Shown here one piece after another: positions 40,438 to 48,807 of a stretch of 64,000 nt of DNA. Both the position numbers and the translations under genes were made by a program. The notes beneath the pieces were generated by a model. That model was not told the DNA's origin, searched no databases, and saw only the letters and a program-made list of their open reading frames with translations. The DNA lies in contig NZ_JAOTIK010000001.1 of assembly GCF_030116705.1 (NCBI RefSeq), positions 6,352,501 through 6,416,500 of the forward strand, written 5' to 3'. The DNA comes from Streptomyces sp. ML-6 (GTDB taxonomy: Bacteria; Actinomycetota; Actinomycetes; Streptomycetales; Streptomycetaceae). Positions within the stretch are counted from its first letter, which is position 1; every line of letters starts with the position of its first letter.

Positions 40438-41925
40438 ATGCAGCGTTCAAGCAACAGCGCGGACACCGGCCCGGGACACGTCGTCGTCATCGGCGGCGGC
40501 ATCGCCGGGCTCACCGCCGCACACCGGCTCCTCGGCGCCGGCCTCCGGGTCACCCTGCTGGAGGCCACCGAGCGGCTCGGCGGCAAGCTCATGACCGGCG
40601 AGATCGCCGGCACCCGGGTCGACCTGGGCGCCGAGTCGATGCTCGCCCGTCGGCCGGAGGCCGTCGACCTGGCCCGCGCCGTCGGGCTCGGCGACCGCCT
40701 GCAGCCGCCCGCCACCACCGCCGCGTCCGTCTGGACCCGCGACGCCCTGCGGCCCATGCCCAAGGGCCACGTGATGGGCGTGCCGGGCGATCCGGCGGCG
40801 CTCGCCGAGGTCCTCTCCCCGGAGGGCCTCGCCCGCATCGCGCAGGAGCGCGACCTCACCCCGACCACCGTCGGCGACGACGTCGCCGTCGGCGCGTACG
40901 TCGCCGACCGGCTGGGCCGGGAGGTCGTCGACCGGCTCGTGGAACCGCTGCTCGGCGGCGTGTACGCGGGCGACGCGTACCGGATCTCGATGCGCGCCGC
41001 CGTGCCCCAGCTCTTCGAGGCGGTGCGGGAGGGCGGCCCGCTCCTCGACGCCGTCCGCCGCGTCCAGGACCGCGCCGCGACCCTGCAGCGGACCGGCCCC
41101 GTCTTCCAGGGCATCGACGGAGGCATCGGCACCCTGCCCGGAGCGGTCGCCGACGCGGTGCGCGCGGCCGGCGGGGAGATCCTGACCGGCACCCCCGTCC
41201 TCGGCCTGACCCGCACCACCACCGGCTGGGACGTCCGCACCGACGCCCGGGTGATCCCCGCCGACGGCATCGTGCTGGCCGCACCCGCCTGGTCCGCCTC
41301 CACCCTGCTCGCCGCCGAGTCCCCGGCGGCCTCCGCCGAGCTGGCCGGGGTCGAGTACGCGTCGATGGCCCTGGTCACGATGGCGTTCCGCCGCTCCGAC
41401 ACGGACGCCACGACCGCGCTCGCCGGACGCTCCGGCTTCCTCGTCCCCCCGGTCGACGGCCGCACCATCAAGGCGTCCACCTTCTCCACCCACAAGTGGG
41501 ACTGGGTCGCCGGATCCGCCCCCGACCTCTTCGTCCTGCGCACCTCCGTCGGCCGCTACGGCGAGGAGGACCACATCCACCGCGAGGACACCGAACTCGT
41601 CGACGTGTCGCTGCGCGACCTCGCCGAGGCCACGGGGCTGACCGCGAAGCCCGTGGACACCGAGGTCACCCGGTGGCTCGGCGGGCTGCCCCAGTACCCC
41701 GTGGGCCACCTCCCGCGGGTCGAGCGGATCCGGGCCGAGGTCGCCAAACTGCCCGCGCTGCGGGTCTGCGGGGCGGTCTACGACGGCGTCGGCATCCCCG
41801 CCTGCGTCGCGAGCGCCCACCGCGCGGCGGACGAGATCGTCCACGACCTCACGGGCCGCCCGGCGGAAGAGATCATCGCCACGCCGACCCTGGTTCAGGG
41901 CACTCGGAGCGAGGCGGGACAATAG
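40438..41925 (+). CDS. hemY: Coproporphyrinogen III/protoporphyrinogen oxidase
   Basis: FAD-dependent oxidase of 495 residues. The dinucleotide motif [18 protein letters not shown] starts near residue 15, followed by [17 protein letters not shown], and the C-terminal [24 protein letters not shown] closes the FAD site. In actinobacteria this enzyme (CgoX, often named HemG or HemY) oxidises coproporphyrinogen III to coproporphyrin III, feeding HemQ. It sits four bases upstream of hemQ, so they are co-translated. No membrane anchor is apparent. Confidence 0.94.
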
Positions 41926-41929
41926 CCGT

Positions 41930-42658
41930 ATGAGTGCGCCTGAGACTGTGAAATCAAGCAAGGGTCCCAACGCGGGCAAGAAGGCCAAGGACCTCAACGA
42001 GGTCATCCGCTACACGCTGTGGTCCGTCTTCAAGCTGCGCGACGTCCTGCCCGCCGACCGGGCCGGTTACGCCGACGAGGTCCAGGAGCTGTTCGACCAG
42101 CTCGAAGCCAAGGACATCACCATCCGCGGCACCTACGACCTCTCCGGTCTGCGTGCCGACGCCGACATCATGATCTGGTGGCACGCCGAGACCGCGGACG
42201 AGCTGCAGGAGGCGTACAACCTCTTCCGGCGCACCAAGCTGGGCCTGGCGCTCGAACCGGTCTGGTCGAACATGGCGCTGCACCGCCCCGCCGAGTTCAA
42301 CAAGTCGCACATCCCGGCCTTCCTGGCCGACGAGACGCCGCGCAACTACATCAGCGTCTACCCCTTCGTGCGCTCCTACGACTGGTACCTGCTGCCCGAC
42401 GAGGACCGTCGCCGCATGCTCGCGGACCACGGCAAGATGGCCCGCGGCTACCCCGACGTCCGCGCCAACACCGTCGCCTCGTTCTCGCTCGGCGACTACG
42501 AGTGGATCCTCGCCTTCGAGGCCGACGAGCTGCACCGCATCGTCGACCTGATGCGTCACCTGCGGGGCTCCGAGGCGCGACTGCACGTCCGTGAGGAGAT
42601 CCCGTTCTTCACCGGGCGCAGGAAGTCCGTCGCAGACCTGGTGGCCGGGCTCGCGTAG
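41930..42658 (+). CDS. hemQ: Coproheme decarboxylase HemQ (ChdC)
   Basis: A 242-residue member of the chlorite-dismutase fold family that decarboxylates coproheme to haem b, the last step of the coproporphyrin-dependent route. The proximal haem ligand is probably His167 in MLADHGKMA. The catalytic tyrosine is in [13 protein letters not shown] near residue 145. The chlorite-dismutase distal arginine is not evident, in keeping with a decarboxylase. The ATG starts four bases after the hemY stop. A strong U-tract terminator lies about 95 bases downstream. Confidence 0.95.
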
Positions 42659-42822: not shown

Positions 42823-43638
42823 CTACCGGTCGTGCCCCGCCGGACCGCCACCACCGCTGCCGCCGCCGAGCGCGGACCGCAGCGCCGGATCGTCCACGGC
42901 GCTCACCCCCCGTACCGCGAGCGCCGACAGGACGTCGTGGTCCGCCGCCGCCCCGGACGGCACCCCGTTCGCGGCCAGCAGCCGCTGACCGGCGGGCGAG
43001 GCCCAGGAACTGTACGGGTGGACCTCCAGCCGGGCGATCGCCAGGCAGCCCAGCGTCAGCGCGAGCGGCAGCCCGAACCAGGCGAGCAGCGCCACCACCG
43101 GACCACCGGGGCCGTGATCCTGGCCGGGAACCAGTAGCACGACGGCCGCCATCGCGACCACCAGCAGCGCCGCGCCGCGCACCCCGCGCACCGCGGCGGC
43201 CACGTCGCTCCCGGCGCCGACCGGGCGCGCCAGCCCGGCGGCGACGAGCCGGTCGGCCAGGGCGCGCACACTGTCGGCGGCAGCCGCCGCGGCCCGCACC
43301 GGCGGTATCGGCGACTGGCCGTGCGGCCCTATGGCACGGATCACCGTGCGTTCCACCTCGTCCCGGCCCTCCGGATCGACCACCGTCGCCCAGCCGGTGT
43401 GGGCGAGCAGCAGCCGTCGGCGCAGATGCATGGTGACCAGCGCCAGATCTATCACCCGGTGCGGGCCACCGGCCAGGAACGCGGTCTCGTACAGGGTCAG
43501 TTCATGACCGGTACCGAGGTCCCGCGCGGCCTCGTCGGAGTCCGGCAACAGTCCCGTACGGGCCGCGACAAGACAGAGCCGGATGCACGAGAAGGCTGCC
43601 GCCCCCCAGGCGACCAGCAGGAACAGTACCCAGAACAT
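42823..43638 (-). CDS. TIGR04222-family membrane protein without Cys tail
   Basis: A 271-residue membrane protein. An N-terminal helix (MFWVLFLLVAWGAAAFS) leads into the family core ETAFLAGGPHRVIDLALVTMHLRRRL and a later pair of helices (ALLVVAMAAVVLLVP, VVALLAWFGLPLALTLG). The C-terminus is Gly-rich (LGGGSGGGGPAGHDR) but has no cysteine. It is the last gene of an operon with a DUF692 enzyme and a Cys-tailed paralogue (89 bases upstream). It may be a partner subunit, a second substrate, or a decayed substrate that lost its cysteines. Confidence 0.85.
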   Translation of the reverse strand: MFWVLFLLVAWGAAAFSCIRLCLVAARTGLLPDSDEAARDLGTGHELTLYETAFLAGGPHRVIDLALVTMHLRRRLLLAHTGWATVVDPEGRDEVERTVIRAIGPHGQSPIPPVRAAAAAADSVRALADRLVAAGLARPVGAGSDVAAAVRGVRGAALLVVAMAAVVLLVPGQDHGPGGPVVALLAWFGLPLALTLGCLAIARLEVHPYSSWASPAGQRLLAANGVPSGAAADHDVLSALAVRGVSAVDDPALRSALGGGSGGGGPAGHDR

Positions 43639-43727
43639 GGCAGATTCCTATGCGAGGCGGACGTGGATGACCATGGCCTGTTCACCATGCGGACGATTCG
43701 GCGGCGCCGGCGGGGCGCCGCCCGGGC

Positions 43728-44741
43728 TCAGGAACCGCCGCCGCAACTGGACCCGCCCCCGCAACTGGACCCGCCCCCGCAGCTGGAACCCCCGCCGGAG
43801 CAACTGGAGCCGCTCGACCCGCCACAGCTCGACCCGGACGCCGAACCGCAACCGCCGCCCCCGCCGCTCCCGTCCCCGGCGCTTCCGCAACTGCCGTGCC
43901 CCGGATCCGTACCGGCGCACCACACCACCAGCGTGAGGGACGGCGCGGAGGAGTCCCGGGACGACGACGGCACCGGGCTCGCCGACCGCCCGGCCGGGCG
44001 CACCCGCGCCGCCGCGACCAGCTGCGCGTGGAAGTCGGCGTCGGGCAGGTACCGCAGCCCGCGCGTGGCCACCAGATGAGCCGGGTGCGTTTCCTGGGAC
44101 CGGTCGGGTCCGTACGCCGCGGCGGCCAGCCGCCCGGCCCCGGTGACGCGTCGCCGGGCGACGCGGGCGCAGACGAAACCGACGAGGACGCCGACGAGCA
44201 GGACCAGGAGCACCTTCAGGACGAAGGGCTCGGGGGACTCGACGGCCGGATCGGCGGACACGTACTGGGAGACCGTCACCGCGATGGAGACCGGGACGGC
44301 CAGCACGCAGACCAGCCCCTGGGCGATGCCCCAGCGGCGCCACGTCCGGCCGGCGGCGGGTGGGGTCAGCAGGCCGCGGGCGGCGAGTCCGTCGCCGATC
44401 TCCTGCACGACGGGGTGCCGCATCACCGCCTCGCGCAGGGTGTGCAGCGCGCCGCTGGAGGCGGCGGCGTGTTCCTGGAGCACCGCGCGTTCCACCGGGT
44501 CATGGGCCTCGGCCCGGTGGACGGCGACGATCCCGGGGCCGCCGACGGCGATCCGTCCGTCCGCGTGCATCGCGGTGAGCGCGGTGTCCACCACCCTGCC
44601 GGGGCCGCCGTTCAGGAAGGCGACCTCGTGGAGGTCGTGGACGGGGCCGCCGGGGCCGCGGCGGGCGCGCGTGAGCCCCACGATCAAGAGGACCGAGGAG
44701 ACCACGACCGAGAGGTCGATCAGACCCGCGACGACGTTCAT
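43728..44741 (-). CDS. TIGR04222-family membrane protein with Cys/Gly-repeat tail
   Basis: A 337-residue membrane protein. An N-terminal helix (LIDLSVVVSSVLLIVGLT) precedes the core HEVAFLNGGPGRVVDTALTAMHADGR, with two central helices near 135-155 and 175-200. The last 70 residues are low complexity with eight cysteines in Gly/Ser, ending in three periodic SSCGGG units. TIGR04222 domains are known for lying next to such tails. The ATG at 44741 is five bases after the DUF692 stop and follows GGAAGGTG. The tail is a plausible substrate for the adjacent iron enzyme, with the rest of the protein holding it at the membrane. Confidence 0.88.
   Translation of the reverse strand: MNVVAGLIDLSVVVSSVLLIVGLTRARRGPGGPVHDLHEVAFLNGGPGRVVDTALTAMHADGRIAVGGPGIVAVHRAEAHDPVERAVLQEHAAASSGALHTLREAVMRHPVVQEIGDGLAARGLLTPPAAGRTWRRWGIAQGLVCVLAVPVSIAVTVSQYVSADPAVESPEPFVLKVLLVLLVGVLVGFVCARVARRRVTGAGRLAAAAYGPDRSQETHPAHLVATRGLRYLPDADFHAQLVAAARVRPAGRSASPVPSSSRDSSAPSLTLVVWCAGTDPGHGSCGSAGDGSGGGGGCGSASGSSCGGSSGSSCSGGGSSCGGGSSCGGGSSCGGGS
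43741..43812. repeat. 18-bp tandem repeat coding the SSCGGG tail
   Basis: CCGCAACTGGACCCGCCC occurs twice exactly (43741-43758, 43759-43776), followed by diverged copies at 43777 and 43795. On the coding strand each unit encodes one Gly/Ser/Cys hexapeptide, so copy number sets the number of tail cysteines. Confidence 0.9.
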
Positions 44742-44746
44742 GCCGG

Positions 44747-46051
44747 TCACCTTCCGATCAGGGCCGCGCGGGCCGCTCGTATCAGCCGGGTGGCGCGGCG
44801 CGGCGGTCGCGCGGCGGCCCGGTCCTGCCACCAGTGGGTCAGTTCGCGCCGGGCCGCGTCGTCGGCGGGTCGCCCCGCGATCAGCAGCGACTCGGCGAAG
44901 TCCAGCGCGTCGCGCCGGTAACCGGCGGACATGGGACGGTTCCCGGCGTACGCGAGGAAGGCGGGCCGGTAACCGGCGCCCAGGATCTCCGGCAGCTCGG
45001 GTGCCACCTTGGCGACGACCCCGGCCCGTTTGGCGGCCAGGGCGCGGCTCTGGACGCCGAGCCGGTGCGCGTCGAAGCCGGGCGGGGCGGGGGCCCCGGC
45101 GACGAGCGCGCGGAGCAACGCGGCCTGGGCGCCCGCGATCCGGTCCCGCACGCCGTCCGCGACGGCGGTGGTGCCGGAGGGCGGCCGGTGCACGGTGCCG
45201 GTGGCCGCTGCCGGGGGTGTCGCCCCGGGCGCCGCCCGGTCCAGCGTGGTGCGGATCGTGGCCAGTTCGGCCGCCAGCTCGCCGGCCGGCGGGAAGTCGT
45301 CGTCGCGCTCCAGCAGGACGCCCGGCGGGTCGACCCGGGAGCGGAGTTCGGCGAGGACGTCGAGGACCGGCGGGGTGACCGGGTGGGCGTGGGTGTCGTG
45401 CCAGACGCCGTCCTTCTCGATCCCGCCCGCCACATGGACGTACGCGATCGCCTCCACCGGCAGCTCGTCGAGCGCGGTGGCCGGGTCCTCGCCCCGGTTG
45501 ACGTGGTTGGTGTGCAGATTGGCGACGTCGATCAGCAGCCGGACCCCGGTGCGTTCGACCAGCTCGGCGAGGAACTGCCCCTCGGTCAGCTCCTCGTCGG
45601 GCCAGGAGATCAGCGCCGCGATGTTCTCCAGGGCCAGCGGCACCGGCAGCGAGTCCTGCGCGATGCGCACGTTCTCGCACAGCACGTCCAGGGCGTCCCG
45701 GGTGCGCGGCACGGGCAGCAGGTGGCCGGCCTCCAGGGCGGTTGAAGCGGTGCGCGGCCCCCCGGCCCGTACGAACGCGATGTGCTCGGTCACCAGCGGG
45801 GCGGCGAGCAGTTCGGCCCTGGCGGCGAGAGCGGCGAGCCGGTCCGGGGCGGGGCGGTCGGCCCCGCCGAGCCCCAGCGAGACGCCGTGCGGGACGACGG
45901 TGACGCCGCGTTCCCGGAGCCGTACCAGCGAATCGGGCAGGTGGCCGACGCAGATGTTCTCCGCGACCGCCTCCACCCAGTCGATCCCGGGCAGGGCCTC
46001 GACGGCGTCCGCGATCTCCGGCCGCCATCCGATGCCGATCCCCAGCCTCAT
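44747..46051 (-). CDS. DUF692 (MNIO-type) iron oxidase with C-terminal partner-like domain
   Basis: A 434-residue protein. Residues 1-280 form a DUF692 TIM barrel with a full set of candidate iron ligands: His55 ([10 protein letters not shown]), His90 (TEHIAF), Glu142 (LALEN), Asp175 (LLIDVANLH), His206 (YVHVAGG), Asp219 and His221 (WHDTHAH) and Glu248 (LLERDDD). DUF692 enzymes (MbnB, TglH) are multinuclear non-haem iron oxidases that modify cysteines in ribosomal peptides. Residues 305-415 ([20 protein letters not shown] onward) resemble the DUF2063-type partner proteins normally encoded separately. It leads the operon with two TIGR04222 genes, the first holding a Cys-rich tail. Confidence 0.9.
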
Positions 46052-47311: not shown

Positions 47312-48058
47312 TCAGCCGCGCAGGGCGGGGTGCTCGGCGACCACCGTGCACGACCCCGGGGCGATCTCGGTGAACCCGGCGTCGCGCACCACCGGCAGCC
47401 CGCCCGCCGTCAGTTCGCGCCAGCGGTCCCGGTCCGCGGCGGCCACGGAGAGCGGGAAGCCCGCCTCGCGCCACGCCTTGCGGTCCGTCTCCGAGAGCTC
47501 CCACCAGGCGAGCTGTGCGCCGTGCCCGGCCTGCGCCATCGCCTTGCCCGCCGACATGTCCAGCTCCGGGTTCAGCCACAGCACCGGCTCCCCGGGGACG
47601 GGCGCGGGCGGCGGTCCGGGGTCGTCCAGCTCCGTGCCCGACACCTGGAGCTTCGCCAGCTCCTTCGGCCAGCCGTCCAGGGGCACCGGCGGGAAGACCC
47701 GCACCTCGGCGCTCTCGCCGGTCACCGTGATGCCCGGCAGCCCGGACGCCCTGCGCCACTCCGCACCGCGCGCCCGCCGCACCACCTTGCGGATCCGGGC
47801 GTCCTGCCAGTCCCGCATCGCCCGCGCCCACTCGCCCTCGCCGGTCGAACGCTCGTCGGAGAGCATCACGAGCACCGCGCGGGCGGCGGTCCGCAGCGCG
47901 TCGGTACGGGCCGGGGGAGCCGCCTTCTCGATGCGCACGACCAGCGGCAGGACGTACTGCGGGGCCTCGTCGCGGTCCGTCCGCCGCGACCCGAACGGGC
48001 CGTCCGCCGCGGACGGCCGGGAAACGGCCGGGGACTCGGAGATGTCTTCGCTGCTCAC
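47312..48058 (-). CDS. Peptidyl-tRNA hydrolase, Pth2-like
   Basis: A 248-residue protein. The C-terminal 110 residues match the Pth2 fold: LNPELDMSAGKAMAQAGHGAQLAWWEL carries the lysine and histidine expected for the active site and resembles the archaeal KMSxGKxAAQxxHA motif, and TEIAPGSCTVVAEHP is the end strand. Pth2 cleaves peptidyl-tRNA. The N-terminal 120 residues are an extra domain (VARRARGAEWRRASG-type), so the physiological substrate may differ from that of housekeeping Pth. GTG start at 48058. It is divergent from the AIM24 gene. Confidence 0.75.
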   Translation of the reverse strand: MSSEDISESPAVSRPSAADGPFGSRRTDRDEAPQYVLPLVVRIEKAAPPARTDALRTAARAVLVMLSDERSTGEGEWARAMRDWQDARIRKVVRRARGAEWRRASGLPGITVTGESAEVRVFPPVPLDGWPKELAKLQVSGTELDDPGPPPAPVPGEPVLWLNPELDMSAGKAMAQAGHGAQLAWWELSETDRKAWREAGFPLSVAAADRDRWRELTAGGLPVVRDAGFTEIAPGSCTVVAEHPALRG

Positions 48059-48129
48059 CCGCCCAGTCTGCCAGCCGCCGGGGCCGCGTTTCTTGGCAGA
48101 ACGGGATACTCCGGGTGAGGATGCACCCC

Positions 48130-48807
48130 ATGAAGAGCGATCTCTTTTCCAGCGAGCACCTGGCGCAGCAGGCGACGGTCCCCGGAATGACCCTGCAGAA
48201 CGCCAAATCCATCAAGTACGCCGTCAACGGCGAGATGCACGCCCGGCAGGGAGCGATGATCGCCTTCCGCGGCGAGCTGCAGTTCGAGCGCAAGGGCCAG
48301 GGCATAGGAGGCATGCTGAAGCGCGCCGTCACCGGCGAGGGGCTGCCGCTGATGGCGGTCCGCGGCCAGGGCGAGGCGTGGTTCGCGCACGAGGCCGCCA
48401 ACTGCTTCATCGTGGAGCTGGAGCACGGCGACGTCCTCACGATCAACGGCCGCAACGTGCTCTGCTTCGACCCCACGATCTCCTACGAGATAAAGACCGT
48501 GAAGGGCGCCGGGATGACCGGCGGCGGCCTCTTCAACAGCGTCTTCACCGGCTACGGCAAGCTCGGCCTGATGTGTGAGGGCCACCCCATCGTGATCCCC
48601 GTGACGCCGCATCAGCCGGTGTTCGTCGACACGGACGCGGTGGTCGGCTGGAGCGCCAACCTGACCACCTCGCTGAACCGGTCGCAGAGCTTCGGCTCGA
48701 TGATCCGCGGCGGTTCCGGCGAGGCCGTCCAGCTGCGGCTGGACGGCGAGGGATTCGTGATCGTGCGGCCCAGCGAGGCCAAGCCCGAGAAGGCGACGGC
48801 CAACTGA
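48130..48807 (+). CDS. AIM24/TIGR00266-family protein
   Basis: A 225-residue beta-rich protein with the repeated triple-barrel pattern of AIM24: MTLQNAKSIKYAVNGEMHARQGAMIAF near the start, GLPLMAVRGQGEAWFAHEA in the middle and GHPIVIPVTPHQPVFVDTDAVVGWS late. The molecular role is unknown, though such proteins are often membrane-associated in bacteria. The ATG at 48130 is chosen because GTGAGG lies nine bases upstream; earlier ATG and GTG codons abut it. Its stop overlaps the proposed CTG start of the ABC ATPase gene. Confidence 0.88.
   Translation: MKSDLFSSEHLAQQATVPGMTLQNAKSIKYAVNGEMHARQGAMIAFRGELQFERKGQGIGGMLKRAVTGEGLPLMAVRGQGEAWFAHEAANCFIVELEHGDVLTINGRNVLCFDPTISYEIKTVKGAGMTGGGLFNSVFTGYGKLGLMCEGHPIVIPVTPHQPVFVDTDAVVGWSANLTTSLNRSQSFGSMIRGGSGEAVQLRLDGEGFVIVRPSEAKPEKATAN

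Follow-up and report, generated by a model that had tools for sequence, protein, structure and literature searches.

We analysed a window of 64,000 nucleotides from Streptomyces sp. ML-6 (contig NZ_JAOTIK010000001.1, positions 6,352,501 to 6,416,500 of the forward strand), in which three minus-strand genes encode an MNIO (DUF692) enzyme and two TIGR04222 membrane proteins, here named tigA and tigB. On the evidence of sequence analysis, and with a probability of roughly 55%, we propose that this operon codes for an oxidative iron enzyme that has a fused partner domain and for its substrate, a cysteine-rich tail predicted to lie at the inner membrane leaflet, and that the enzyme would also act in trans on a small unlinked Cys-tailed protein, named mini. 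All three names were coined in this analysis.

That the Cys tail of a TIGR04222 protein may serve as MNIO substrate, the central idea of the original prediction made from this DNA, is already published: in the available part of their article, Antoine et al. (2025, PMC12452194) propose the C-terminal Cys-rich segments of TIGR04222 proteins as putative MNIO substrates. They treat the same enzyme and protein families as found here, with the same type of C-terminal tail, and describe the linkage as frequent, not constant, more than a quarter of the TIGR04222 proteins having no C-proximal Cys. The evidence presented below makes the proposed enzyme-tail relation more likely. Likely to be new are the built-in partner of the enzyme, the probable cytoplasmic position of the tail and the unlinked mini, the pairing itself being known. 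The operon is composed as follows.

44747..46051, minus strand: MNIO (DUF692) enzyme with fused C-terminal domain, 434 residues (PF05114 match)
45242..46051, minus strand: catalytic TIM barrel, MNIO residues 1-270, eight ligands (residue check and alignments)
44759..45157, minus strand: fused all-helical partner-like domain, MNIO residues 299-431 (PF26136, "SCO6045-like C-terminal domain"; Pfam)
43728..44741, minus strand: tigA, TIGR04222 membrane protein with Cys tail, 337 residues (TIGR04222 profile)
43731..43919, minus strand: Gly/Ser/Cys tail of tigA, residues 275-337, eight Cys, WCAG motif at its start
42823..43638, minus strand: tigB, second TIGR04222 protein, no Cys tail, 271 residues (TIGR04222 profile)

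The tight order of the three open reading frames had been noticed before and was confirmed, including the five bases that separate the MNIO stop from the tigA start. The single MNIO and both TIGR04222 proteins of the genome are encoded at this locus, and the named homologues among the matches listed are nearly all from Streptomyces.

The enzyme and its fused partner-like domain

The MNIO, of a family known to modify cysteines, matches PF05114 with an E-value of 8.9e-78 (261.6 bits, for a curated cut-off of 25). A complete set of candidate iron ligands had been claimed for it, and all eight residues were indeed found in place (H55, H90, E142, D175, H206, D219, H221 and E248). None of them varies among 14 diverse actinobacterial MNIOs, and in an alignment of 100 Streptomyces MNIOs every letter at these columns agrees, one row being gapped at three of them. 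The barrel shares the TIM-barrel fold and the metal ligands of TglH and MbnB. Its best NCBIfam match is BufB (NF050167), at 179.8 bits, which is under the equivalog cut-off of 310. An MNIO was present in 96 of 101 Streptomyces genomes. Some Streptomyces carry a second MNIO class (L064-L066, L211-L213), scoring 358-371 bits to PF05114, for which neither a TIGR04222 protein nor a partner domain was seen on the stretches read.

Beyond the barrel, approximately 160 further residues hold a second domain (299-431), unmentioned in the original prediction. Pfam annotates PF26136 on this MNIO and on its listed homologues, and the structure model is all-helical, with six helices. In other genera the same domain is a stand-alone gene adjoining the MNIO. 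Among 104 MNIO-TIGR04222 loci read, it was found at 103, fused to the enzyme in 85 and separate in 18. In the available part of PMC12452194, a PME-type 2 partner is encoded in at least 10% of TIGR04222 clusters, and many MNIO-TIGR04222 clusters appear without a partner gene, whereas here a putative partner is present, in most Streptomyces as part of the enzyme itself. Judged from sequence, the partner is probably not missing from such clusters but built into the Streptomyces enzyme; for these bacteria, this would answer the published puzzle of TIGR04222-linked MNIOs without a partner gene. None of the 11 occurrences of "fusion" or "fused" in the available text concerns an MNIO-partner fusion, and no unlinked mini protein was found there. 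Neither turned up in searches limited to the open literature, and both look like new leads.

The PME-type 2 partners of Antoine et al. are, in the same text, short, largely helical proteins whose genes neighbour those of MNIOs, with examples in Micromonospora and Saccharothrix. The domain studied here is likened to them by this description, not by comparison with those examples, and differs in being mostly fused; its sequence gave no established DUF2063 homology. VIA-align rows contained no TglI, MbnC or 3dee match, but these rows covered MNIO residues 1-282 only, so the helical domain lay outside the comparison. Fragments bearing PF26136 alone (P0282, P0319, P0356, P0360) are labelled "endonuclease, partial" in public records. 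This label is misleading, and probably arose because the barrel used to be matched to AP endonucleases.

The cysteine tail of tigA and its side of the membrane

Both membrane proteins score well above the TIGR04222 cut-off of 43, with 142.4 bits for tigA and 125.6 bits for tigB, and the downstream protein had been correctly assigned to the same family. Of the ten Cys of tigA, eight belong to the tail, at positions 275, 285, 298, 306, 314, 321, 327 and 333. Eight regularly spaced cysteines had been described; the number holds, and the spacing (10, 13, 8, 8, 7, 6, 6) is regular only in the last part. Among the 120 tigA homologues listed, 118 have 6-11 Cys within the last 90 residues and the remaining two have 2, while W274 and C275 of the WCAG motif are invariant across 49 aligned relatives. 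Because the array is kept in homologues and W274-C275 does not vary, the tail cysteines are not a matter of chance. Residues 251-332 are disordered in the AlphaFold2 model (pLDDT below 50), and a fold search with the TIGR04222 model gave nothing useful (best E-value 0.55).

Topology was predicted from hydropathy peaks and from the Lys/Arg charge of their flanks (positive-inside rule). tigA has three peaks, and charge gives an N-out, tail-in arrangement. In 121 close relatives, the mean Lys/Arg number was 3.2 after the first transmembrane segment (TM1), 3.4 before TM2 and 3.6 after TM3, whereas the N-terminus had 0 and the loop between TM2 and TM3 had 0.25; the pattern was N-out, tail-in in 121 of 121. 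Among the 50 TIGR04222 proteins of a draw across the class Actinomycetes, 37 give three peaks, of which 33 fit tail-in. Three of the four misfits have misassigned peaks (loops of 95, 111 and 119 residues), and L007 is a true exception. By the positive-inside rule, the N-terminus of tigA is probably outside, and its soluble domain and tail in the cytoplasm. A surface-displayed tail, as first proposed for this protein, is probably wrong, and was rejected on this charge pattern. The MNIO itself should be cytoplasmic, on the same side as the predicted tail.

tigB has no Cys tail. Three cysteines in its membrane helices, residues 13, 17 and 193 when counted along the matched stretch, recur in 58, 57 and 61, respectively, of the 63 Streptomyces relatives compared; two lie four residues apart in TM1 and one in TM3. 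The trio could possibly form a metal or disulfide site. tigB itself is not constant, being present at 64 of 93 Streptomyces loci in a first count.

Co-occurrence of the enzyme with tailed proteins

The association between enzyme and tail was examined with 158 evenly drawn Actinomycetes genomes, from which Streptomyces was removed for the tail comparison. Of the 50 TIGR04222 proteins read, 38 were compared, the 12 Streptomyces rows being excluded; 15 rows below the search cut-off were not included. Outside Streptomyces, a Cys tail was defined as three or more Cys among the final 60 residues. Absences are soft, as just a share of the first-look candidates was scored, 16 or 25 per genome in TIGR04222 searches and 31 to 49 in mini searches. 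A Cys tail was present in 16 of 17 TIGR04222 proteins adjacent to an MNIO, versus 3 of 21 non-adjacent ones (Fisher, 1.3e-6), and the genomes of these three have an MNIO at another place. Counted per genome with TIGR04222, the tail was found in 18 of 19 genomes with MNIO versus 0 of 14 without (1.8e-8), P values that are optimistic because related genomes were counted singly and six of the MNIO-less ones come from one genus. One genome (G079) was scored as MNIO-bearing from a partial frame at a contig end, although it is missing from the listing of MNIO genomes; scored otherwise, the counts become 17/18 versus 1/15.

Within Streptomyces, 100 MNIO loci were read and the 7 with less than 2.5 kb downstream were omitted. 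Of the 93 that remained, 53 have a Cys-tailed TIGR04222 neighbour and 40 have a complete enzyme with none (the labels of L132 and L138 changed between the first and the later count). The MNIO ligands are kept in tailed and no-tail loci alike. The predicted DUF692-TIGR04222 link survived this check for co-occurrence, though not one-to-one, and a rule that such a neighbour is always present was rejected. The more specific claim, that the enzyme acts on the tail of a full-length membrane protein, gains support from this co-occurrence and loses its novelty to the published proposal.

Many no-tail loci have the tailless tigB only, often after a DUF4142 gene. This gene was considered as a replacement of tigA, being present in 7 of 9 no-tail loci read closely (three confirmed by Pfam). 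It is no clean swap, because the related frame, found at 26 of the 40 no-tail loci, is also found at 20 of the 53 tailed ones.

The mini came to light when 101 Streptomyces genomes were searched for three CGG codon groups, a noisy pattern whose reversed control also matches most of the listed genomes. Its plan consists of a start, one transmembrane segment, a basic stretch, WW[A/V], and then a Gly/Ser/His region with Cys repeats; it was seen at 29 of the 30 loci of the first profile search, L375 being the exception. The 29 full minis, of 80-120 residues, all have WW[A/V] and 3-6 Cys; WW[A/V]G occurs in 25 and CGGGSSCGG in 23. The copy of the present genome is L373 (G000:C1:3598991-3599257). 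In 20 wide loci chosen for having a match, the mini was present in all, an aminotransferase frame accompanied it in 20/20, and aldolase, phosphoribosyltransferase and aldose epimerase frames in 19/20, the twentieth locus being a 3.8 kb contig. A transfer RNA scan of 28 mini loci gave none. NCBIfam and Pfam scans of 8 minis gave no convincing family: CtaJ matched one member at 17.3 bits (cut-off 43), and three Pfam families matched one member each, the best being YxzE at an E-value of 1.9e-5. The mini is apparently an undescribed protein family at a conserved distant locus. Three genomes from other genera (L032, L034, L060) have single-segment Cys-tailed proteins of similar plan adjoining the MNIO.

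With a better profile, and counting matches up to an E-value of 0.01, the mini was detected in 70 of 101 Streptomyces genomes; in the class draw, 10 of 12 Streptomyces had it, and one further match, interrupted by two stops, is not credible. Scored at the same threshold, the 93 MNIO loci divide into 32 with both tail and mini, 21 with the tail only, 37 with the mini only and 3 with neither. A tail or a mini is thus present in the genomes of 90 of these loci, and a mini in 37 of the 40 no-tail ones; one of the three with neither (G180) gave a weak mini match in another search. In the genus draw, the mini was found in 69 of 96 genomes with MNIO versus 1 of 5 without (P 0.03). Among 150 Streptomycetaceae genomes drawn, each of the 36 that match the mini at an E-value of at most 1e-6 has an MNIO, for a base rate of 115/150 (P 2.1e-5); for the 11 mini genomes outside Streptomyces, P was 0.03.

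Proposed mechanism, alternatives and genomic context

In the mechanism we envisage, the partner domain would hold the substrate, and the MNIO barrel would oxidise Cys residues of the Gly/Ser/Cys tail on the membrane-anchored protein. If the tail faces the cytoplasm, it would be open to the cytoplasmic enzyme, and no export would be needed. The same Streptomyces enzyme probably also acts in trans on the mini, an 80-120 residue protein with one membrane segment, WW[A/V] and an array such as CGGGSSCGGG. The chemistry may be thiooxazole-like or oxazolone/thioamide-like, and the outcome would be an array of modified Cys at the inner leaflet of the membrane, binding metal, with copper as a first guess taken from the bufferins, or serving the response to oxidants. 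A fuller version of this proposal, in which one MNIO-partner fusion modifies two kinds of inner-leaflet tail, the TIGR04222 one of the operon and the mini in trans, as a cytosol-facing, never-exported counterpart of the bufferins and perhaps an oxidant-switched redox or copper device, is offered tentatively, and we would not bet on all its parts holding together.

Several observations weigh against the operon encoding a tail-modifying enzyme with a partner domain and a second substrate in trans. On the enzyme side, a DUF2063 match of the partner domain was obtained in 1 of 14 cases only, and weakly (E-value 0.067), and a profile search of this domain in the PDB gave no hit. On the substrate side, there are the 40 of 93 Streptomyces loci with no Cys-tailed neighbour, and of 20 TIGR04222 proteins that Streptomyces encodes with no MNIO adjoining, 6 have 3-5 Cys in the tail (among the others, L232 has 5 Cys across a 413-residue frame, and the rest have 0-2). 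Nothing but co-occurrence connects the unlinked mini with the MNIO. Two of the 11 weaker mini matches of the Streptomycetaceae draw (G267, G318) are in genomes without MNIO, and G165 has a strong mini match with no MNIO detected, the other four MNIO-less Streptomyces having given no mini. Finally, tail and mini appeared complementary in the raw counts, with a mini in 37/40 no-tail versus 32/53 tailed loci (P 6e-4). An MNIO tree of 92 rows shows 5 changes of the tail and 14 of the mini, with 3-5 independent pairs, so the trade-off is not significant when kinship is allowed for and was rejected.

Alternatively, the main Streptomyces substrate could be something else, either tigB with its membrane cysteines or another protein, the Cys-tailed TIGR04222 being optional or unrelated. 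An MNIO in 96 of 101 genomes with a tailed neighbour at just 53 of 93 loci, and the strong conservation of the tigB trio, speak for this; the close tracking of tail and MNIO outside Streptomyces, the mini in nearly all no-tail genomes and the inconstancy of tigB speak against it, and we consider it unlikely. It is less likely again, in our estimate, that the tail is modified as proposed and exposed outside the membrane, as both the original prediction and Antoine et al. have it. Their model, in the available text of PMC12452194, places the tails as likely periplasmic, the compartment in which bufferins act, and 4 of 37 diverse three-peak proteins misfit tail-in. The Lys/Arg distribution, tail-in in all close and 33 of 37 diverse relatives with three of the four misfits due to peak assignment, argues for the cytoplasmic side. 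Free Cys-Gly-Gly arrays accompanied by His are able to bind metals unaided, and the tails might act as plain thiols, metallothionein-like and unmodified, with the MNIO a neighbour for another reason. The mini of G165, with no MNIO detected, would fit such a role; the absence of the Cys tail from 14 of 14 MNIO-less non-Streptomyces genomes with TIGR04222 goes against it, and we hold it to be about as improbable as the exposed tail. A tail modified by the MNIO at the inner leaflet is the reading that we retain. It would mean that in most Streptomyces membrane proteins, too, receive MNIO modifications at the inner leaflet, and the mini offers a short, easily expressed candidate substrate. To our knowledge, every MNIO product characterised to date is a peptide or an exported protein.

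The bufferin system (BufA/BufB/BufC, an MNIO with a DUF2063 partner) is alike in its plan, an MNIO and a helical partner acting on Cys-rich ribosomal products, as proposed here. It differs from the present one by the sub-cut-off BufB score and by the putative substrate, which here has three predicted membrane segments and no recognised Sec-type precursor form; at 337 residues tigA is far longer than a bufferin-type precursor, and the charge flanking its N-terminal helix fits an N-out transmembrane segment. TglHI (3-thiaglutamate) and MbnBC (methanobactin) have the same barrel fold and metal ligands, with a separate partner chain and small peptide substrates, whereas here the domain is fused and the tail is protein-borne.

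A hint about function comes from SCO6045. In the part of PMC4991794 available, this S. coelicolor gene is raised 3.01-fold by H2O2 in the wild type and not in an hsr deletion, among 28 H2O2-raised, hsr-dependent genes that include cysteine-synthesis genes; its link to our enzyme is through the PF26136 name "SCO6045-like C-terminal domain" only. Convergent to the operon lie two genes, of a HemY-like oxidase and of a chlorite dismutase family protein of HemQ type; the HemQ frame is conserved at 82 of 93 Streptomyces loci. Together, the SCO6045 response and the heme neighbours hint at redox or metal handling. The neighbouring features are the following.

40438-42658, plus strand: HemY-like oxidase and HemQ-type gene (PF06778)
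47312..48058, minus strand: upstream neighbour with PTH2 (peptidyl-tRNA hydrolase) domain (PF01981, E-value 1.3e-9)
48115-48807, plus strand: AIM24-family gene (PF01987)

The frame with the PTH2 domain is conserved in 71 of 93 Streptomyces loci (38/53 tailed, 33/40 no-tail). It resembles "adjamnio-II" of Antoine et al., a peptidyl-tRNA hydrolase-like MNIO neighbour listed for cluster II in the available part of PMC12452194.

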